Below, one piece after another: positions 17,698 through 53,471 of a DNA stretch of 64,000 bases. The notes under the pieces were generated by a model that saw nothing but the letters and a program-made list of their open reading frames with translations, was not told where the DNA came from and did not search any database. Position numbers and translations under genes: made by a program. This stretch comes from Sphingomonas glaciei (lineage in GTDB: Bacteria; Pseudomonadota; Alphaproteobacteria; Sphingomonadales; Sphingomonadaceae), in contig NZ_CP097253.1 of assembly GCF_023380025.1 (NCBI RefSeq), forward strand, positions 1,883,501-1,947,500, read 5' to 3'. Positions within the stretch are counted from its first letter, which is position 1. Each line of letters starts with the position of its first letter.

Positions 17698-20600
17698 ATG
17701 AACGACGAGAGAACTTTTCGCTGGCTTCACTTGAGCGACCTACATGTCGGCATGAAGGAGCAGTCGTCCCTCTGGCCTAACGTTAAATCCGCGCTTCTGG
17801 CAGACTTGCAGTCTCTGTTGAAGAGAACGGGAACTATCGACGTAATTATCTTCTCGGGGGACATGACGAACCGTGGCAAGCCAGACGAGTTTGCAATCCT
17901 TCAGAACATCCTCACGGAAATACGAGACGTCGCCAAACTGTACGGCCCTTCTCCGCAGTTCCTCTTCGTTCCAGGAAACCACGACTTACAAAGGCCTCGG
18001 AAATCCGCGGCACCGCATCTTGTCCTTAAGCGCTGGTGGGACGAGCCCGCCGCGCAAGAGCAATTTTGGGAACCCAGATCCGATCTCCAGCGAGCTGTGA
18101 CAAAATCCTTTCTGCACTACAGCAACTGGACGGCGTCAGGCTCAGCCCTGCACAGCTTGAGTACTCATTCGCGCGGCATTTTGCCGGGCGATTTTTCGGG
18201 AAGCTGGCAGGGTCCTGGAATCAAAGTGGGAATTGTAGGCCTCAATAGCACGTGGCTTCAGCTCGACGCAGGAGACTACGAAAAGAAGCTTCACGTCGAT
18301 CTGAGACAAATACTTGCTGTCACAAATCATGCACCCGAAGAGTGGTGTGCCAAGAATGATATAAACCTTATTGTCACACACCACCCACCCAGCTGGTTAC
18401 ACCCCTCTAGTTTGGCTACATGGGAATCCGAGATCAATCCCCCCGGAAGATTCGATGTCCATTTCTTCGGACATATGCATGTTCCAGATGCGCAAACAAT
18501 CTTACAGTCTGGCAGTACGGGGCGCACCACTGTTCAAGCGGCATCGGCTTTCGGTCTGGAAAGCTTAGGGAACGGTCAAAGCAGAGTGCACGGCTTCAAT
18601 GTCGGAGAGATTCGGCTAGACAAGACCAAAAAGTATCGAAGAATTTGGCCAAGAGTTCTAAAGCGACATACGAGTGGACGAATGCGATTTGTAGCTGATA
18701 CTGATTTCGAACTTAATGAAGGGAATTACTTCGAAGAACAGTATGGTTCAGCACCTGACAGGCAGCATGCCTTAGATAGCCTGCCAGCAACCCTAGCTAC
18801 TAAGAAAATCTCGCCGGGTGAAGGTACTAGTGCTGAGGAACTCGAGGCAGTTCGCTACAAACTTCTGCCGGCTACTTCACACAGAAATGTCAGACTGCCA
18901 GAGCAGGAAGCGTGCATAGGTTACCTCAAAACCACCCGCACTGCTTGGATACAAGCGGATTGGGGCCTTGGTAGCGACGGTTTCGTTTGGTCTGTTCTCC
19001 AAAGACGGGGACATCTTGAGGGCACAGTCTACCGGTTTGACTGCAGTAACTACGAGAGCCGTGATCGCTTCCTTGACGGCGTGCGACGCCTTGCAGGAAT
19101 TAGTTTTGAGAAACTCTGCGAAGTGATTTCGCGTCAGTCGAATGCTTACATTCTATTCGACAATGTCAATCCAACTTGTACTGACGAGAATGGGCATTCG
19201 ATTGCATACGACATTGCAGAGCTTATGCTTGTCGTTAACGATTATTGCCCTGAGGCGTCAGTGCTTGTGCGGAGTCGTGGCGCTCCCCCAGCCGAGATAC
19301 CGTCAGTGCGCCTTAGGGCACTCGATGAGCCAGATATTGCGGTCTATGTATCAGATTCACCCTATTCAGCTCAAGCGCTGAAGTCTCCTGATTTCCCCTC
19401 TAAACTTCACAGACTTACTGATGGCACGCCAAGTCGCCTAGACCGGGCACTGCGCGAACTTAATGTTGTCGGAATATCCGATTTGGTAGCTTATAATTCA
19501 GACTACGTCCCGGCATTGACAACGCAATCTTCTGCCCCAGCGACCTTGGTGCAAGCTATAACGGTTCTCTCACAATCCGACGACATCGCAGAACAACGCG
19601 CGTTGTCTCTATTGCAGGTTCTATCTACATTTCCCCAAGGGGAAGAGCTTGAAGGCATTAGACGGTTCAATGTCACGTATCAGTTCTTTGCGACCAGTGC
19701 CACGCTACTGCACGATCAAGGCCTGATCGACTCCAATTCCCTATCCGAGGTCTCAGGCAAAACAAGCGGTCGCGATGTACGGGTTCTCAGTGTTGCTCGT
19801 GACGTTCGCGACTACATCCGCGCCACAATCGGTGACGAGTCAGCGGAACGGCTCCACAACAGAGCCATGGAACTTTATTTTGGCTCGGACTGGCGGAATG
19901 GCCTGCTTAAAACAAAGTCTGGCCATCGCTATGATGAGCCTCTGCAGTTCGAATTTCGCATCTCGAATGCAAGCGCATTGCTTTTGCGACATATCGCAAG
20001 CCTTCAGAGTAGCGGAGATGATATTGCTATTCGAAGCAGCTTCCGGTTGCTGACCACTTATCTAGGATCGCTGGTTGAAGGCGCCCATTACAGAAGCGTT
20101 GTTGCCTTATCTTCTGATCTTGAGCCGTTTGTAAGTATGGCGAGCGCAGTCGAAAGAGATCTAATTGCGTACCAAAATGCAAAAAGCCTTCGCATGCTCG
20201 GTGAGGGGGAGAGAGCAAGAGAAGTGCTTGAAGGCATAAATTCAGCCTTGCTGACTAAAGATTTACGAAGAAGTACTCTTCTCAATTTGGCACTCTGCTA
20301 CCAATCGTTAGACGACCCGAGGGCAGTTTCAACCGCCGAGAAAGTCATCTCTATGGGCAAAGCTGAGTCTTCAGCAGTGCAGGCCGAAGCAATCATCATT
20401 CGCTCTGCTTATACAGGTGACGAGAGGCGAAAGCGTCTCCTCGATCTAGAAAACACTGCTAAGCGCAAGAAGTTTGATCAGATGGTAAATACCATCGCTT
20501 TAATCAGGGCGGACGACATGAGCCTTGATGAAGTCCAGAGGACGCAGATTCTTGACGAGGTGCTAGATCGATCGCGTAACAAGAAAGATTTCTACAATGG

Positions 20601-20991
20601 CGTTCGGGCCTTGATCAAAATCTGTGCCGCAAAGATTGCGAAGGGTGAATATCTTACCGAGCGTGACAGATCCCATCTAATCGATGCCTATCACTTCCTT
20701 TACAATGAGCGTCTTTCCGCCTTGTTCGAAGAATGTAGCGATACACTTTGGGCAGACTTTGAGCGCACAGGCGATGTCGGTAATCTGCTTAGGCTGTTTA
20801 GGCATAGCTCGTTCATCTGGCGCCTGCTCGGACGGGAGCAGAAAGAAAAAGGATATATCAAACGCCTTGCAAAGAGGGCGCCGAAGCTCGGTGTTTCCGT
20901 CGAGTTAGAGCGAGAGCGCGCTTATTATCTAGCACGAGCAAGCGCGACAATTGCTTCCAATGATGAGCTGCCAAGAAAAATTGAAAGGTAA
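17698..20991 (+). CDS. Metallophosphoesterase fused to a degenerate STAND ATPase and helical repeats
   Basis: Predicted 1097-residue cytoplasmic protein. Residues 8-300 are a calcineurin-like phosphoesterase with all metal motifs: SDLH (13-16), GD (54-55), GNHD (93-96), THHPP (227-231) and GHMH (258-261). Residues about 400-600 look like a STAND/NB-ARC-type module: the P-loop position reads DWGLGSDGF (421-429) with no Lys-Thr/Ser, Walker B-like YILFDNV (484-490), sensor-like VLVRSRG (522-528) and a GTPSRLD (576-582) at the GLPL position. A winged-helix-like part (about 620-740, ending VRDYIRATIG) and an alpha-helical TPR-like tail follow. GC is near 50%, far below its neighbours, which suggests transfer. 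The plan resembles single-gene STAND antiphage proteins; that role is inferred. Confidence 0.8.
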   Translation: MNDERTFRWLHLSDLHVGMKEQSSLWPNVKSALLADLQSLLKRTGTIDVIIFSGDMTNRGKPDEFAILQNILTEIRDVAKLYGPSPQFLFVPGNHDLQRPRKSAAPHLVLKRWWDEPAAQEQFWEPRSDLQRAVTKSFLHYSNWTASGSALHSLSTHSRGILPGDFSGSWQGPGIKVGIVGLNSTWLQLDAGDYEKKLHVDLRQILAVTNHAPEEWCAKNDINLIVTHHPPSWLHPSSLATWESEINPPGRFDVHFFGHMHVPDAQTILQSGSTGRTTVQAASAFGLESLGNGQSRVHGFNVGEIRLDKTKKYRRIWPRVLKRHTSGRMRFVADTDFELNEGNYFEEQYGSAPDRQHALDSLPATLATKKISPGEGTSAEELEAVRYKLLPATSHRNVRLPEQEACIGYLKTTRTAWIQADWGLGSDGFVWSVLQRRGHLEGTVYRFDCSNYESRDRFLDGVRRLAGISFEKLCEVISRQSNAYILFDNVNPTCTDENGHSIAYDIAELMLVVNDYCPEASVLVRSRGAPPAEIPSVRLRALDEPDIAVYVSDSPYSAQALKSPDFPSKLHRLTDGTPSRLDRALRELNVVGISDLVAYNSDYVPALTTQSSAPATLVQAITVLSQSDDIAEQRALSLLQVLSTFPQGEELEGIRRFNVTYQFFATSATLLHDQGLIDSNSLSEVSGKTSGRDVRVLSVARDVRDYIRATIGDESAERLHNRAMELYFGSDWRNGLLKTKSGHRYDEPLQFEFRISNASALLLRHIASLQSSGDDIAIRSSFRLLTTYLGSLVEGAHYRSVVALSSDLEPFVSMASAVERDLIAYQNAKSLRMLGEGERAREVLEGINSALLTKDLRRSTLLNLALCYQSLDDPRAVSTAEKVISMGKAESSAVQAEAIIIRSAYTGDERRKRLLDLENTAKRKKFDQMVNTIALIRADDMSLDEVQRTQILDEVLDRSRNKKDFYNGVRALIKICAAKIAKGEYLTERDRSHLIDAYHFLYNERLSALFEECSDTLWADFERTGDVGNLLRLFRHSSFIWRLLGREQKEKGYIKRLAKRAPKLGVSVELERERAYYLARASATIASNDELPRKIER

Positions 20992-47059: not shown

Positions 47060-47173
47060 GGCCGAGGCAATGCGATGAAGCGCAGCCTGGTCTGACTTCC
47101 GCAAATCCTGCCTGGCCGGTCCGCAAACAGGCTGCTCGACTTCGGACGCGACTTCACCTTTGGATTCGTCAAG

Positions 47174-47189
47174 ACCAGACCGATCTGGT
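47174..47189. promoter_or_regulatory. Palindrome upstream of the TIR-FHA gene
   Basis: ACCAGA-CCGA-TCTGGT, 6-base arms, 72 bases before the TTG start of the TIR-FHA gene. The kdpE-TIR gap (47060-47260) holds no gene; an AT-rich stretch (about 47190-47215) after the palindrome may be the promoter. Operator role is a guess from symmetry and position. Confidence 0.35.
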
Positions 47190-47260
47190 AAACCTTGGTT
47201 AAGCAAAGTTTTTGGGCGTCGAATCACCAGAAAAGCTGAATCTTTGAGCAGAGGTGCGAT

Positions 47261-48172
47261 TTGGCCGGGCGCGATATCTTCATTTCCTACAGTCGTGACG
47301 ATCGCGCCGCCGCCCGGCACTTCGCCAAGTGCCTCGAGGAAGACGGCTTCACCGTCTGGTGGGATGCCGCGCTCCATTCGGGCGAAAGCTTCGACCAGGT
47401 CATCGAACGTGAATTGCGTGCCGCAGCGGCGGCGATCGTCCTGTGGTCCCCGCGCTCGGTCGCCTCGCGCTGGGTCCGTGCGGAAGCGACGCTGGCCGAC
47501 CGCCAGGGCAAGCTGATCCCCGTCATCATCGAACAATGCGAACGCCCGATCATCTTTGAGCTGACGCACACCAACGATCTTGCCGACTGGATCGGCGACA
47601 AGAACGATCCGCGGTGGAAAGGGCTGGTCGACGACATCGCCCGGCTGGTCGGTGATCGCCGCGCAAGGACCGCAGGTCCGGCCGCTGAAAAGCCTGCTGC
47701 GCAGCCGGTGCCTTTCGCTGCCGCGCTTCCCCTGCAGCGCGAACAGCAGGCGCCACCGCACCAGCCGGCGATGGTCCCGCCGCAGGACAATGACGATTCG
47801 CAGGCCACGCAATTTTTCGTCGGCGCCGACTGCCAGGACATTTTCCACTGCCTCGAGATCAGCACCGAGGAGCATGGCGAGCGCCGCTATATCGTCGCGC
47901 CGCAAGGGCTGCGGATCGGACGCTCCCCACCCGCCGACATCATCCTTTCGGATCGGCAGGTGTCGCGGTCGCACTGCCTGGTCGAACTGGACGGAAACGC
48001 GCTCAGGATCACCGATCTCGGCTCGACCAACGGCACTTATGTCGATGGAAAGCGGGTCGAGCGCTCGGCGTCGTTGGCCGTCGGATCGGTCCTGACCGTC
48101 GGAACGGTGAGCATGCGGCATCAGGTGCGCAGCGCGCGGGTGATGAGCCAACGGAGATACGCCGTCGGTTGA
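47261..48172 (+). CDS. TIR domain-FHA domain fusion protein
   Basis: Predicted 303-residue protein. Residues 3-130 are a bacterial TIR domain: DIFISYSRDD, GFTVWWD and a candidate NADase Glu75 in SRWVRAEA. A disordered linker (130-180) leads to a C-terminal FHA domain (about 205-290) with GRS (220-222), SRSH (235-238) and STNGT (255-259), the phosphothreonine-binding set. Start is TTG after GAGG with 6-base spacing; no ATG fits. It ends at TGA 48170-48172, and the same frame stays open into the SLOG gene. TIR enzymes cleave NAD+; the FHA part predicts control by the neighbouring kinase and phosphatase. Confidence 0.88.
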   Translation: MAGRDIFISYSRDDRAAARHFAKCLEEDGFTVWWDAALHSGESFDQVIERELRAAAAAIVLWSPRSVASRWVRAEATLADRQGKLIPVIIEQCERPIIFELTHTNDLADWIGDKNDPRWKGLVDDIARLVGDRRARTAGPAAEKPAAQPVPFAAALPLQREQQAPPHQPAMVPPQDNDDSQATQFFVGADCQDIFHCLEISTEEHGERRYIVAPQGLRIGRSPPADIILSDRQVSRSHCLVELDGNALRITDLGSTNGTYVDGKRVERSASLAVGSVLTVGTVSMRHQVRSARVMSQRRYAVG

Positions 48173-48196
48173 GCCCGGCGCGCGAAGGGGGGTTTT

Positions 48197-49948
48197 CTGG
48201 AAGTTGCTCATCCGCCGCGGCCGCGGCTCACGCTCAATGTCGGCATCACAGGGCATCGGGCTTCCATCCTTCCCACCGACCTGATCGACGATCTGGTCCC
48301 CGTCGTCGACGAGGTGTTCCGCCAGCTGGCAGCGGGGATGAACCGCCTGCATGCGCGGGAACGAGCCTTGTTCGATCCCGCTCCGCCCCAGCTGCGGCTG
48401 CACACGCCGCTCGCGTCGGGCGCCGATCAACTGGCGGCCCGGGGCGCGCGGGCAAGCGCGTTCGAGATCCGTGCCCTGCTGCCCTTCGCCCCCGACGACT
48501 ATCGCGCTGACTTCACCGGACGGGCCGAGCGCGCCGACTTCGAGCGCGAGCTGAGTGCCGCCGACCAGTTGTTCTCGCTTCCCGGACAGCGGTCCGACGA
48601 AGAGGGCGCCTATGTCCTGGTCGGCAAGGCCGTCGTCGCCGCGGCCGATATCCTAGTCGCAATCTGGGACGGCGGCGCCGCGAACGGGCCTGGCGGGACC
48701 GGGCACGTGGTCGACCAGGCGCTCGCCAACGGCGTGCCGATCATCCATCTGCTGGTCGATCGCGACGGCGGGCAAAGCGGCACGCTTCGCCTGCTGTCCG
48801 ACGGCGAAGTCGGCGCCCCTAGGGTCAGCCCCTTCGGCACGCCGGACACCTATGACGCGCTGCTTGGCGATACCCTGCTTCCGCATACGGCCGACGAACG
48901 ACAGCACATCACCGATTATTATGCCGAGACCACCCGGCGCCATAACTGGCGGCTGGAATATCCCCTTCTGCTCACCACCCTGTTCGTGAAAAGCCTGCCC
49001 CGCGCCGCCTGGCGCGAGGCGCCGCCCCCCGCCTCCGACCGGGTCCGCCGCCCCGATCTCGCGACCTATGCCTGGGCCAATCTGCTCGCCATCCGCTACG
49101 CCCAGATGTTCCGCAGCGGGCATGTCGCCAATTACGTCCTGTCCGCATCGGCGGTGCTGCTGGCGCTGGTCGGGCTGCTGCTTCCCGCGGCCAAGGTGTA
49201 TCTGGTGATCGCCGAACTGGGCGCCATCGCCCTGCTGTTCCGCAACACACGTGCGGGGACGGAGGGCGACTGGCACCGCCGCTGGCTGCAGTACCGGCAC
49301 TTGGCGGAGTCGCTGCGTCCGCTCTACTTCCTCAAGGGCACCGGCCTGATCAGCACGCCGTTCCGAAGCGACTTCGTCCGCGGCAATGCCCACTGCGAGA
49401 CCGGCGCCGACTGGACCCGCTGGTATGCGGCGGCAGTCTGGCGCGAGATGGACAGCCCGACCGGATCGATCGGCCCATCCGAGACGGCCACCTTGGCGCG
49501 CCAATTCAGCGAAGAACAGATCATCCCGCAGGCCGAGTATCACCGCATCAACGCCGCGCGGATGAGCAAGCTCGACCACCGCCTGCACGAGGTCGGAAAC
49601 TTCCTGATCGGCGCGGTGATCTGCGTCTGCTGCCTCTACCTCGTCGGCTATGTCCTCATCCACGACGTCGCCAAGTCGCTGACCAACGCCTTCATCTTCC
49701 TCACCGCAGGCCTTCCAGCCGTCGGCGCCGCCATCTTCGGCCTGCGCGGACACGGCGAGCATCTGCTTGCGGCCAGCCGCTCGGTCAGCTCCGCCACCGC
49801 ACTCGATGCTTCCGCGGCGCGGCTCGGCAAGGTATCCGACGCGGAAGGCCTGTCCCGAGAGTTCGAGCATGCGGCATCGATCATGCTCGCGGATCTCAAC
49901 GAATGGACGATCGCCTATCGCGAACGCTCGCTGGAAATCCCCGCCTGA
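48197..49948 (+). CDS. SLOG-like domain protein with SLATT-like membrane region
   Basis: Predicted 583-residue protein if read from CTG 48197, which follows an AAGGGGGG site. The nucleotide-binding SLOG signature GITGHR is encoded at 48242-48259, upstream of the first conventional start (GTG 48314), so that start would destroy the fold. Further SLOG elements are LASGADQLAARGA and VAIWDGGAANGPGGTGHVVDQA. The C-terminal half has two helix pairs (about 312-349 and 466-515) with WHRRWLQYRHLAESLR between, reminiscent of SLATT/2TM effectors. No stop separates it from the TIR-FHA frame except TGA 48170. Confidence 0.75.
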   Translation: MEVAHPPRPRLTLNVGITGHRASILPTDLIDDLVPVVDEVFRQLAAGMNRLHARERALFDPAPPQLRLHTPLASGADQLAARGARASAFEIRALLPFAPDDYRADFTGRAERADFERELSAADQLFSLPGQRSDEEGAYVLVGKAVVAAADILVAIWDGGAANGPGGTGHVVDQALANGVPIIHLLVDRDGGQSGTLRLLSDGEVGAPRVSPFGTPDTYDALLGDTLLPHTADERQHITDYYAETTRRHNWRLEYPLLLTTLFVKSLPRAAWREAPPPASDRVRRPDLATYAWANLLAIRYAQMFRSGHVANYVLSASAVLLALVGLLLPAAKVYLVIAELGAIALLFRNTRAGTEGDWHRRWLQYRHLAESLRPLYFLKGTGLISTPFRSDFVRGNAHCETGADWTRWYAAAVWREMDSPTGSIGPSETATLARQFSEEQIIPQAEYHRINAARMSKLDHRLHEVGNFLIGAVICVCCLYLVGYVLIHDVAKSLTNAFIFLTAGLPAVGAAIFGLRGHGEHLLAASRSVSSATALDASAARLGKVSDAEGLSREFEHAASIMLADLNEWTIAYRERSLEIPA

Positions 49949-50398
49949 TCAGATCTTCTCGCCCGGGCCCTGGCGCCCCCACAGCCGCTCCATGATCAGG
50001 TAGGTGAAGGACGCGCTCCAGGCGACCAGCACCAGTCCGTTTAAGGCCTCGAGACCAGCGACGATCCGGATGTTGCCATGCGGTAGGATGTCACCGATGC
50101 CGAGCGTCGTGTAGGACGCGATCGAGAAATAGAAATGGTCTGCGAACCAGCCGGGCCCGCCGACGATCGCACCGGTCAGTTCGCCCTCCCCTGCCCAGTC
50201 CAGCAGCGATAGGCCGAGCGCGTAGAGGACCACCTCCACTAGGTGCGCCAGGAAGATCACGGTGAGGATGATCGGAAACGGGTGACGTATCTTGTCCTGG
50301 CGCCGGTAGATCCAGCGACCGAGGCGTTCGAGCGTCCATAAGTGGATCAGGAAGCAGCCGCCGATCAGGCCGATCGCCACCACGAAGGTCAGCAGCAT
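49949..50398 (-). CDS. Small two-pore-helix ion channel
   Basis: Predicted 149-residue membrane protein of the Ion_trans_2 type. Helices about 3-20, 42-63 and 112-135 surround a pore loop YFSIASYTTLGIGDILP; the selectivity filter TTLGIGD departs slightly from TVGYGD, so K+ selectivity is likely but not certain. Start ATG 50396-50398. It lies 40 bases downstream of the Ser/Thr kinase gene on the same strand, and its stop directly abuts the stop of the convergent SLOG gene. Confidence 0.85.
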   Translation of the reverse strand: MLLTFVVAIGLIGGCFLIHLWTLERLGRWIYRRQDKIRHPFPIILTVIFLAHLVEVVLYALGLSLLDWAGEGELTGAIVGGPGWFADHFYFSIASYTTLGIGDILPHGNIRIVAGLEALNGLVLVAWSASFTYLIMERLWGRQGPGEKI

Positions 50399-50438
50399 CG
50401 TTGGTCCTCTGCGAAGGGTGCGTGAAGTACCGCGCCGA

Positions 50439-52667
50439 TTATTGCGCTTGGGTCTGCTTGACGAGGAACACGAGATAGGCCCGGGTACGCTTGGCACTCG
50501 TGATGATGGTGTCGGCCTGTGCGTTGGTCGTCGCCGTTCGCGCGGACCGCTTCAGCACCTTCAGATAATCGTCATAGCCGCGCGCCAGGCGGCCATTCTC
50601 GCCGCGATCGGCCCGCATCACCTGCCGCGCCATGCCGCGCGCTTCGTCGATGATGCCGTTCATCTCGCCCAGCTTCGCCGCCGACGCCGCTCCGGCCGCG
50701 CTCGCAACCGGCGCTGCAGTTGTCGGCGCGGCCGGCTTCGCAGTCGATGTGGCCGCGGCGACAGCCTTTGGCAGGGCGGCGGCCCTGGCCGGGGGCTCCC
50801 GCTCGACCTTCGTCTGCACCGCTGCCAACTTGGCGGTCGGGACGCTGGCCAGTGTCGCCCGCCAGGCGCGATACCTGCCCAGCATCTCACGCGCCGCGGC
50901 GGACGAGGCGGCCGCGTCCGCCGCCCCGTTCACTGCCTGCGCGGCGGTCTGGAACTCCCCCGACTGGCCGTTCAGGCGCGACAGGTAGGACCGTTCCGCC
51001 GAACTGCTCGGGACGGCAGTGCCGCCCGGATCGGTCCACGGAGCAGCGCCCGCCAGTCGCTGCCGCCGCAGCGTCGCATCCTCGGCCAGCACGGCCGCAA
51101 AGGCCTTGTCGGCGGTCAGCGCAGCCTCGTTCATCGAGGCCTGCAAGGCGGCCGCCTCGCCTGACCGGGCCGGATCGCCGAGCAGCGTCTGCACCTGCGC
51201 CTGGTCACCGGCCAGCTTCTCGCTCGCCGCAGTCAGTGCCGCGATCGCGCTGTCCGGCGCGCCCGCCGCGCGAGCCTCTTCGGCCAGCGCCTTGAGGCCG
51301 GGCGCGAGCATTCCCGTATCCGGTCCCGAGTAAGTGGCAACAGCTGCAGGAGCGCCGGTAGCCGGTCCCGCAGGCGCGGTCAGCGCGTCCGTGTTGGTCC
51401 TCGGCATCAAGCTCCAGCCAGCCGCGCCGACCGCCACGACCGCGGCGACGGCTGCTGCGATCAAAGGCCCCTTCTTGCGACCCGCAGCCGCAGGCGAGGG
51501 CACAGGCGCGGCAGCGGGCTTGCGGACCGGCTCGGCTAGCTTGGCCGGCGGCTCCTCCTTGACTACCGCCGGGACGACAGGCTCCGCGGACTTGCGCGCG
51601 ACGCCCGTCTCGTGGCCGGCGCGCTTGAACCTGGCTTCGCCCGGCGTGTCCGGGACATTGGTCTCGATCGGCACGTCGGCCACGTCGGCGGGCGGCGCGA
51701 CCGGAACGATCTCCTGCACCGCCACCTCGTTGATGGTGAAGCGCGTGCGCTCCTCATCCTCGCTGTCCGCGCCGGCCGCCGCCCCTTGCGGGAACAGCGC
51801 CAGCCATTGGGTGATCGATTGCGGCCGCTCCTCGGGCTTGATCGTCATCGCGGTGTCGATCGCGGCCAGGAACTTCTTGCTGTAGCCGGGCCACTTGCCG
51901 GCGCCGAGCGGCTGCCCCTGCCCGCCATGAAGCCGCTCCAGCACCTCGGGCGGTTTGGTCCCGGTGACGCACTCGTAAAGCACCACGCCGAGCGCGTAGA
52001 TGTCGGTCCACGGGCCCTGCTGGTAGGTTTTCACATATTGTTCGATCGCCGCGTAGGGCGGGGTGTGGAAGGTGACCTGGGTGCTGGTCGCCTCCGCGGT
52101 GTCGAACCGGGCGGAGCCGAAGTCGATCAGGACCGACCGGCCTTCGGGGGTGATCAGGATGTTTGGCGGCTTGATGTCGCGGTGGAGCACGCCGACCCGG
52201 TGCGCCCGGTCGAGTCCCTCGGAGATCGGCGCGATGATGTCCCACAGGCTGCGCTCGTTGAAGCGCCCGCCGTTCTTCAGCAGGCGCGACAGCGAGGTCC
52301 CGTCCTCGAAGTCCATCACCATATAGGCGGTGCCGTGAATCTCGAACAGGCTGCGAACGCTGACGATGTTGGGGTGCCGGCTGGGGGTGGAGAGGTTCCA
52401 CAGCAGCTTGGCTTCCTCAACGAACTTCTTCAGGCCGAGCGCATGGACTTCCTCGGCATCGGAATCGATCGGGACGACCGTCGCTTCCTCGTCGCGCTCG
52501 CTGATCGAACTCGGGAAATATTCCTTAATCGCGACCAGTTCGTTGAAGTAAATTCCGCGCGCCTTGTAGACGATGCCGAAGCCGCCGACTCCAAGCACCT
52601 CTTCCAGCCGCCACTCGCGAAGCACGGTCCCCGGCGGCAGGGCCTTGTTCGAATACGCCTTGCTCAT
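50439..52667 (-). CDS. Membrane Ser/Thr protein kinase
   Basis: Predicted 742-residue kinase. The Hanks-type domain (about 18-295) is complete: glycine loop GVGGFG (26-31), Lys48, HRDIKPPN (162-169) and DFG (182-184). A charged Pro/Ala-rich linker precedes one membrane helix (about 399-420) and an Ala-rich helical extracytoplasmic region to the end. A threonine pair in EERTRFTINEV (305-315) sits in an acidic context suited to FHA binding, which is speculative. Divergent from a PP2C phosphatase, and upstream of the ion channel gene. Confidence 0.93.
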   Translation of the reverse strand: MSKAYSNKALPPGTVLREWRLEEVLGVGGFGIVYKARGIYFNELVAIKEYFPSSISERDEEATVVPIDSDAEEVHALGLKKFVEEAKLLWNLSTPSRHPNIVSVRSLFEIHGTAYMVMDFEDGTSLSRLLKNGGRFNERSLWDIIAPISEGLDRAHRVGVLHRDIKPPNILITPEGRSVLIDFGSARFDTAEATSTQVTFHTPPYAAIEQYVKTYQQGPWTDIYALGVVLYECVTGTKPPEVLERLHGGQGQPLGAGKWPGYSKKFLAAIDTAMTIKPEERPQSITQWLALFPQGAAAGADSEDEERTRFTINEVAVQEIVPVAPPADVADVPIETNVPDTPGEARFKRAGHETGVARKSAEPVVPAVVKEEPPAKLAEPVRKPAAAPVPSPAAAGRKKGPLIAAAVAAVVAVGAAGWSLMPRTNTDALTAPAGPATGAPAAVATYSGPDTGMLAPGLKALAEEARAAGAPDSAIAALTAASEKLAGDQAQVQTLLGDPARSGEAAALQASMNEAALTADKAFAAVLAEDATLRRQRLAGAAPWTDPGGTAVPSSSAERSYLSRLNGQSGEFQTAAQAVNGAADAAASSAAAREMLGRYRAWRATLASVPTAKLAAVQTKVEREPPARAAALPKAVAAATSTAKPAAPTTAAPVASAAGAASAAKLGEMNGIIDEARGMARQVMRADRGENGRLARGYDDYLKVLKRSARTATTNAQADTIITSAKRTRAYLVFLVKQTQAQ

Positions 52668-52757
52668 GCGCGACCAGCCCCCACGAAGCTGTTAACCGGG
52701 ATCGCATAAACGGCTTGCAAATGCTAGTCACCCGGACGCGGCAGCGGGGTGCACTCC

Positions 52758-53471
52758 ATGGGCTTTCAATGCGTCAGTCGGACCCACGTGGGACTCAAGC
52801 GCCGGATCAACGAGGATGCGCTTATGGTCCGGACCGAGCGCGGCCTGTGGGCGGTGGCGGACGGCATGGGCGGGCACGAGGCCGGGGATGTCGCCAGCAG
52901 CAAGACCGCCCAAGCCCTGCAGCAACTTCCGATCGTCTACGACATCGATGAACTGGTCGATGCCGCCGCCGCCGCACTGTTCAAGATCAACCACGAACTG
53001 ATCGTCCTCGCGCGCGGTGAAGGCCTGCCCCGAACGATCGGCAGCACGGTGGTCGGCCTCGCCATCGCCGGCCCCGAGTGCAGGTGCTTCTGGGCCGGGG
53101 ACAGCAGGGCCTATCGCCTGCGCGCCGGCAAGCTGGTCCAATTGTCGCGCGATCACAGCCTGGTGCAGGAACTGGTTAGCGCCGGGATGTTGCGCCCCGA
53201 CGAGGCGCTGGATCATCCCCAGTCCAATGTCGTCACCCGCGCGGTCGGCGTAACGGAGGAACTAAGGCTGGAGATCGTCTCGGGTGATGCACAGGACGGC
53301 GATCTCTTCCTGCTCGCCAGCGATGGCCTGACCCGGGTGGTCCCCGACGACGAGATAGCCGACGAGCTGTCTGGCAGCTCGCTCGACGCTGTTGCCGATC
53401 GGCTGATCGAACTGGTGCTGCATCGGGGCGCTCCCGACAACGTGTCGCTGATCCTCATCCGCAAGGACTGA
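52758..53471 (+). CDS. PP2C-family Ser/Thr phosphatase
   Basis: Predicted 237-residue metal-dependent phosphatase. Motifs RRINEDALMV with Asp20, VADGMGGHEAGD with Asp35, WAGDSRAYRL, LASDGLT and GAPDNVSLILI are intact. Start ATG 52758 fits a GGGG site; a GTG at 52749 is in frame. Divergent from the kinase gene (about 90 bases), the usual pairing for reversing kinase output. No type VI secretion genes are near. Confidence 0.93.
   Translation: MGFQCVSRTHVGLKRRINEDALMVRTERGLWAVADGMGGHEAGDVASSKTAQALQQLPIVYDIDELVDAAAAALFKINHELIVLARGEGLPRTIGSTVVGLAIAGPECRCFWAGDSRAYRLRAGKLVQLSRDHSLVQELVSAGMLRPDEALDHPQSNVVTRAVGVTEELRLEIVSGDAQDGDLFLLASDGLTRVVPDDEIADELSGSSLDAVADRLIELVLHRGAPDNVSLILIRKD

Follow-up and report, generated by a model that had tools for sequence, protein, structure and literature searches.

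Five adjacent genes at positions 47261-53471 of a 64,000-nucleotide stretch of Sphingomonas glaciei DNA (contig NZ_CP097253.1, positions 1,883,501 to 1,947,500 of the forward strand; hereafter the window, from a host genome of 2.88 Mb) encode a TIR-FHA protein, a SLOG protein with SLATT-like membrane helices, a small K+-type channel, a PpkA-like Ser/Thr kinase and a PP2C phosphatase, in agreement with the original prediction made from this DNA. We propose, with a probability of about 0.5, that a threonine-phosphorylation module independent of the type VI secretion system (T6SS) controls the TIR enzyme, and that the product of this enzyme would be read by a SLOG partner equipped with an output, a reading drawn from sequence, structural models and analogy. 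The observations beneath it are the domain content, the fold of the SLOG region, residue conservation, a recurrent association and an exchangeable partner. The features of the locus are as follows.

47157..47260, + strand: conserved leader 5' of TIR-FHA, left edge of the block in common with the nearest relative, genome G011 (blastn block 47157-53462 against its locus L027; letters compared side by side)
47261..48172, + strand: TIR-FHA protein, TTG start, 303 amino acids (aa), with N-terminal TIR, linker and C-terminal FHA (Pfam TIR_2 and FHA; 27 homologous rows)
47483..47485, + strand: Glu75 codon of the TIR domain, where the catalytic glutamate is expected (Glu in 27/27 rows)
47807..47809, + strand: Thr183 codon, within the A-T-Q-F-F motif of the linker that precedes FHA, a candidate phospho-switch (aligned column)
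48197..49948, + strand: SLOG-SLATT membrane protein, CTG start, 583 aa (start codons of orthologs; alignments A1 and A2)
48215..48901, + strand: SLOG domain, residues about 7-235 (AlphaFold2 model and PDB comparisons)
48914..49945, + strand: SLATT-like membrane region, residues about 240-583 (NCBIfam SLATT_1 and Pfam DUF4231 in family members; model poor here)
49949..50398, - strand: small K+-type pore protein, 149 aa, with the filter-like motif T-L-G-I-G-D (Ion_trans_2; KirBac3.1; 19-row alignment)
50439..52667, - strand: PpkA-like Ser/Thr kinase with an acidic linker, one transmembrane helix judged likely by eye, and a further C-terminal part past this helix (Pkinase; solved PpkA; 23-row alignment)
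51744..51746, - strand: Thr308 codon of the kinase, within the motif [DE]-x-T-[RKQ]-[FIVL], a candidate FHA docking site (Thr in 23/23 rows)
52749..53471, + strand: PP2C phosphatase, oriented divergently to the kinase gene, with ATG 52758 as the likely start (PP2C; 25-row alignment)

Conserved residues of the TIR-FHA protein, the kinase and the phosphatase

The TIR-FHA protein matches Pfam TIR_2 (6e-24) and FHA (5.6e-20). Glu75, the putative catalytic glutamate, as expected of a Thoeris TIR protein, is invariant in the 27 aligned rows, and the Arg, Ser, His and Asn residues through which FHA domains bind phosphothreonine are kept in all 26 rows that cover them. The linker column of the A-T-Q-F motif holds Thr in 20 of the 27 rows, Ser in two, Ala in one and a gap in four, and is invariant in the five-row alignment A3. 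Solved structures matched by the FHA part include GarA and OdhI; those matched by the TIR part are weak (7e-5 to 5e-3), the NAD(+) hydrolase AbTIR being among them. The accessible text on AbTIR gives 2'cADPR as its product (PMC10022894). AlphaFold2 modelled TIR-FHA poorly (mean pLDDT 60), and this model entered no fold search.

The kinase (Pkinase, 9e-36) has PpkA as its nearest solved structure (6e-52; next best 5e-25), and its Lys, catalytic Asp and DFG-Asp are invariant in the 23 aligned kinases, as in an intact active site. A Thr in the acidic linker, within the pattern [DE]-x-T-[RKQ]-[FIVL], is likewise invariant in the aligned column (23/23; a regular expression over a fixed window recovers the motif in 20/23), and among 125 other windows taken from the same kinases the pattern turns up in 8. 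The PP2C partner of such a kinase is present in the window; it matches Pfam PP2C at 1.8e-11 and Stp1_PP2C_phos at 2e-57, yet under the cut-off of the latter (194 of 230 bits). The kinase, the PP2C and the FHA, which had been linked on first reading, form a conserved set whose catalytic and phosphothreonine-binding residues are intact in the alignments.

The SLOG-SLATT protein and the pore

The SLOG-membrane gene begins 24 bases 3' of TIR-FHA in the same frame, most likely at CTG 48197, where ten distinct closest orthologs have TTG. Close relatives of the SLOG protein among named records come from Croceicoccus, another Erythrobacteraceae bacterium and a Sphingomonas metagenome-assembled genome. 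Comparison of the AlphaFold2 model with the PDB established that the N-terminal region adopts the Rossmann-like SLOG fold assigned to it earlier, with matches that include ThsA and TRPM2. LOG-type enzymes carry the catalytic motif PGGxGTxxE; a function of this type was rejected, the Glu position (counted from the aligned G-T) being V, I, T or L in 48/48 sequences and never Glu. Pfam gave no SIR2 or macro match in the protein, and PADLOC no family.

In the membrane half, at a threshold of E<=0.1, SLATT_1 (NCBIfam) matches 43 of the 48 family members (best 1.4e-16) and DUF4231 (Pfam) matches 40 of them, the window protein itself reaching 20 of 41 bits against the SLATT model. This half of the AlphaFold2 model is poor, and the SLOG-SLATT profile found nothing below E 0.6 among solved structures. 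The pore protein matches Ion_trans_2 above the Pfam cut-off (1.1e-9; 38.4 bits, cut-off 22.5) and KirBac3.1 at about 1e-6. The pore and kinase genes lie on the opposite strand to TIR-FHA, and the PP2C gene diverges from the kinase.

A recurrent core and an exchangeable SLOG partner

Neighbourhoods were compared at 27 distinct TIR-FHA loci, the window included, after two duplicates (L025, the same as L028, and L083, the same as L026) had been dropped; these loci belong to related species and are non-independent. The recurrent core consists of TIR-FHA, kinase and PP2C, with a full-length kinase aligned for 23 of the 27 loci and the kinases of L023, L065 and L075 cut by contig ends. A SLOG-SLATT protein adjoins TIR-FHA at 16 loci, ten of them with the channel, and a SLOG-only open reading frame (ORF) at one (L065). 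SLOG-SLATT stands with the core in four gene orders: in that of the window, beside swapped PP2C and kinase genes (L023, L081), past the PP2C (L047), or convergent on a TIR-FHA gene that adjoins the PP2C (L096, L097).

At four loci (L066, L067, L074, L075) the adjoining gene encodes a TPR-S/SLOG/cyclase protein instead. Pfam finds TPR-S and Guanylate_cyc in those of L066 and L067, hhalign places the SLOG profile on the central portion with a probability of 97.6 (E 4e-12), and the SLOG-domain profile derived from the SLOG-SLATT proteins matches all four (E 5e-12 to 1e-6). The protein occurs in 4 of 61 genus genomes, directly upstream of TIR-FHA every time. On the TIR-FHA tree, into which L065 was entered as SLATT though its ORF is the SLOG part only, and from which the contig-cut L075 was left out, the three cyclase loci with a complete gene cluster together (100/99), and the deep branches are weak; the partner types account for four changes in all, against a minimum of two.

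The expected co-occurrence of the five genes was recovered in part: the kinase core is conserved and the SLOG association recurs, whereas no fixed set of five exists, complete fives being present at 8 of 27 loci (9 if the contig-cut kinase of L023 is counted). The idea of the five as a single system did not survive, since the channel follows SLOG-SLATT and not the kinase core (it is found at 0 of 10 core loci without adjoining SLOG-SLATT) and, of 16 strong homologues of the channel within the genus, 4 lie away from SLOG. An alternative would be that chance has placed the kinase core beside an unrelated system made up of SLOG-SLATT and the channel, TIR-FHA acting by itself as a phospho-regulated NAD+-depleting toxin or as a scaffold. 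We regard this as unlikely: six TIR-FHA loci without adjoining SLOG, SLOG-SLATT proteins found elsewhere with other TIR proteins or alone, and channels without either core or SLOG-SLATT would fit it, but a SLOG protein adjoins TIR-FHA at 21 of 27 loci, with two output types and several gene orders, and core-less SLOG genes usually lie next to another TIR.

SLOG and TIR genes away from the core

The link between TIR and SLOG that had been drawn for this locus extends beyond it. Another TIR gene lies within 5 kb at 40 of the 50 SLOG loci outside TIR-FHA loci, the genus background being 1.79 TIR_2 matches per Mb. This figure is fairer than the raw count (56 of 66 SLOG loci at >=100 bits, window excluded) because 16 of the 56 are TIR-FHA loci by the choice of loci. 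Some of the TIR genes used to build the TIR profile come from these same loci; an independent Pfam scan placed TIR_2 above cut-off in 7 of 7 TIR proteins tried. Counted within three genes, a TIR is present at 46 of 61 SLOG loci, a figure that reflects SLOG genes missed by the gene caller (no SLOG rows for L024, L026, L027, L031, L081 and L083). SLOG matches, a few of them weak, occur in 46 of the 61 genus genomes; 43 have matches resembling TIR-FHA, a count into which other TIR proteins enter. A Fisher test of SLOG against TIR matches over these genomes (45/5/1/10) gives p 3e-7, ignoring descent and including the weak SLOG matches. The number of TIR_2 matches per genome reaches 17 in genomes of 2.4-2.9 Mb (G031, G034), and 11 of the 61 have none at E<=1e-6.

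The TIR partner met most often beside SLOG is roughly 700 aa long, and the two examples scanned both carry TPR repeats. It recurs in a row with, often, a protein of about 150 aa ending in D-P-x-x-x-N-G and then SLOG-SLATT (L034-L053, L055, L058, L062, L078 and others); the one small protein scanned had no Pfam match. In many species of the genus the row is flanked by neighbours that themselves recur, and it is probably a second TIR-SLOG system.

Among 337 genomes drawn across the class, at least one, the host genome itself, carries TIR-FHA (E<=1e-45), and at least 10 are positive for SLOG-SLATT, 8 of the 10 outside the family. These counts are lower bounds, as at most six candidates per genome were scored for TIR-FHA in the class search and, for SLOG, at most five in the family search and three in the class search. 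Two of seven fetched out-of-family SLOG-SLATT loci, both of one genus, adjoin a TIR gene, as does a further locus of the own family (L107).

Proposed mechanism

The kinase would sit in the inner membrane, part of it lying outside the cytoplasm, and would sense envelope disturbance and phosphorylate a Thr in its own acidic linker and another in that of TIR-FHA. The FHA domain would bind these phospho-sites, gathering and activating the TIR domains, and the PP2C would reset the switch. Given the invariant residues and the known PpkA/PppA/Fha pathway, it is likely that the kinase and the PP2C act on TIR-FHA. Once clustered, the TIR domains would probably cleave NAD+ to an ADP-ribose-type nucleotide, as the invariant glutamate suggests. 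The SLOG domain of the neighbouring gene would then sense this nucleotide and drive the output; its modeled fold and its association with TIR tip the balance towards such a role. With similar reserve, we favour a membrane effect as the output in the window, where the SLATT helices and the adjoining K+-type pore would depolarise or permeabilise the membrane; at the four cyclase loci the SLOG-fused cyclase would make a cyclic nucleotide instead. The likely use would be abortive infection or a response to envelope attack; we put an antiphage or attack response at slightly under even odds. More tentatively still, the set may represent a general "phospho-TIR" danger or immune circuit, in which the PpkA/PppA/FHA pathway has been moved onto a TIR, an envelope-sensing kinase switches an NAD-derived messenger, and SLOG receptors are interchangeable, their output being either a SLATT effector accompanied by a K+-type pore or a class III cyclase, which would convert the first messenger into a second.

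Several observations weigh against the proposed phosphorylation-controlled TIR-SLOG pathway. Every biochemical step is deduced from sequence and models. The linker Thr is gone or substituted in 7 of 27 TIR-FHA rows, one of them truncated. The best fold matches of the SLOG domain are YpsA and DprA and not ThsA, so that the TIR product is only a candidate ligand; the comparison with ThsA covered the overall fold. The canonical K+ filter is GYG or GFG, and that of the pore reads GIG and not GYG (by eye, TLGIGD in 16 of 19 rows, TLGLGD in two and TLGLTQ in one). Six of the 27 TIR-FHA loci (L068-L073) have no adjoining SLOG at E<=1 with the SLOG-domain profile; L069 is a contig of only 8.2 kb, and all six genomes have SLOG-SLATT elsewhere. 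Croceicoccus bisphenolivorans (L024) has TIR-FHA, SLOG-SLATT, channel and PP2C with no adjoining PpkA-like kinase. Ten of the 50 core-less SLOG loci have no TIR match in the DNA examined (among them L080, a short contig), nor do five of the seven fetched SLOG-SLATT loci of other families have a TIR gene. Finally, the flanks of the core look metabolic by eye, with no systematic scan, unlike a defence island.

To our knowledge, how bacterial TIR systems are activated is largely open. If the proposed pathway is correct, a TIR enzyme would be the immediate target of a reversible kinase/phosphatase switch, phosphorylation control of the T6SS kind would be a portable danger-sensing module, and SLOG receptors could route one TIR signal to different outputs. 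Two threonines, one glutamate and one SLOG pocket would provide a simple experimental handle.

Genomic setting

The only match of a 19-kb stretch of G011 to the window is 47157-53462 (83%), and two further 20-kb stretches of that genome, to the left and right, have no match to the window besides this block. Because the flanks do not match, the block is placed differently in the two genomes. Its guanine-plus-cytosine (GC) content nevertheless equals that of the chromosome, the ground on which the locus had been described as resident.

The genes beside the block in the window are presumably kdp; a link to kdp was rejected, since G011, the nearest relative, is without this neighbourhood. The same genes bear on the alternative of a physiological envelope or ion-stress pathway instead of immunity, with a kinase that would sense envelope or osmotic change and an output that would adjust membrane potential or K+. 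The K+-type pore belongs to the set, the presumed kdp genes adjoin it, and the setting of related TIR-TPR/SLOG-SLATT pairs, whose neighbours recur in many species, differs from a typical defence island; however, the kdp neighbourhood is not common to G011 and the core is sporadic (C-terminal part of the kinase matched in 20 of 61 genus genomes), and we hold this alternative to be rather unlikely. As a separate observation, weak matches to the KdpD and KdpE of the window come next at L024.

Elsewhere in the window, 17698-20991 encodes a protein of 1097 aa with an N-terminal calcineurin-like phosphoesterase (PF00149, 7e-14), a part that resembles PADLOC models for PDC-S60 and an endonuclease effector. 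It is possibly a defence gene; the GC content around it, at 0.51-0.62, is lower than the 0.65-0.70 that mostly prevails.

Comparison with known systems

Threonine phosphorylation by PpkA/PppA/Fha is a known control of T6SS, and the accessible parts of the papers describe, as here, a PpkA-like kinase, a PP2C and an FHA protein together (PMC5995506, PMC6653060). The present locus differs in lacking the sheath gene VipB, in the fusion of FHA to TIR and in its SLOG partner. The earlier statement that no type VI secretion genes are present holds for VipB (PF05943), which is absent from the host genome and from 24 of 25 carrier genomes (of the 27 carriers, L023 and L024 were not included; other T6SS genes were not searched); the sole positive genome is that of L101 (G034:C314). 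Membership among T6SS regulators was rejected on this widespread absence of VipB (24 of the 25 carriers). An origin as a T6SS remnant, or a role as an accessory T6SS regulator, would account for a kinase nearest to PpkA and for the presence of both PP2C and FHA, but with VipB missing, an FHA protein fused to TIR and far under the cut-off for TagH (TIGR03354, 43.8 of 120 bits), and catalytic residues kept, this explanation is highly improbable.

The domain content does not support a known Thoeris type, there being no SIR2-SLOG or TM-macro ThsA. Unlike type I Thoeris (ThsB TIR and ThsA SIR2-SLOG), the set has no SIR2, its SLOG is N-terminal to SLATT helices, its TIR carries FHA, and a kinase and a phosphatase are added. 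The TIR is only weakly like ThsB models: NCBIfam ThcB4 gives 37 of 220 bits, the best PADLOC ThsB model (6e-5) ranks under other TIR models, and Pfam ThsB_TIR (21.6 of 21.2 bits) is barely above cut-off and far under TIR_2 (85.2). Thoeris with TM-macro ThsA shares, in the available text, a nucleotide sensor joined to membrane helices (PMC11204291). The sensor here is SLOG and not macro, and phospho-control is added.

TRPM2 is a eukaryotic channel gated by ADP-ribose; its likeness to the present protein is the SLOG fold alone, the membrane part being different, with no sign of whole-protein kinship. The original prediction of SLATT is reportedly that of Burroughs, Aravind and colleagues in 2015. 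As far as their accessible text goes, papers on the nucleotide-centred TIR/SLOG/SLATT conflict systems that these authors predicted present SLATT as a predicted nucleotide-triggered membrane effector found with TIR (PMC7159879, PMC9503650), and differ in that no TIR controlled by FHA, kinase and PP2C and no SLOG-cyclase is seen there. No paper describing the set of TIR-FHA, SLOG-SLATT, channel, kinase and PP2C was found in the open-licence literature among the matches listed, as far as the text of these shows, and to that extent the set can still be called undescribed. Its halves resemble known things, namely the TIR-SLOG nucleotide signalling of Thoeris and the PpkA/PppA/Fha pathway.

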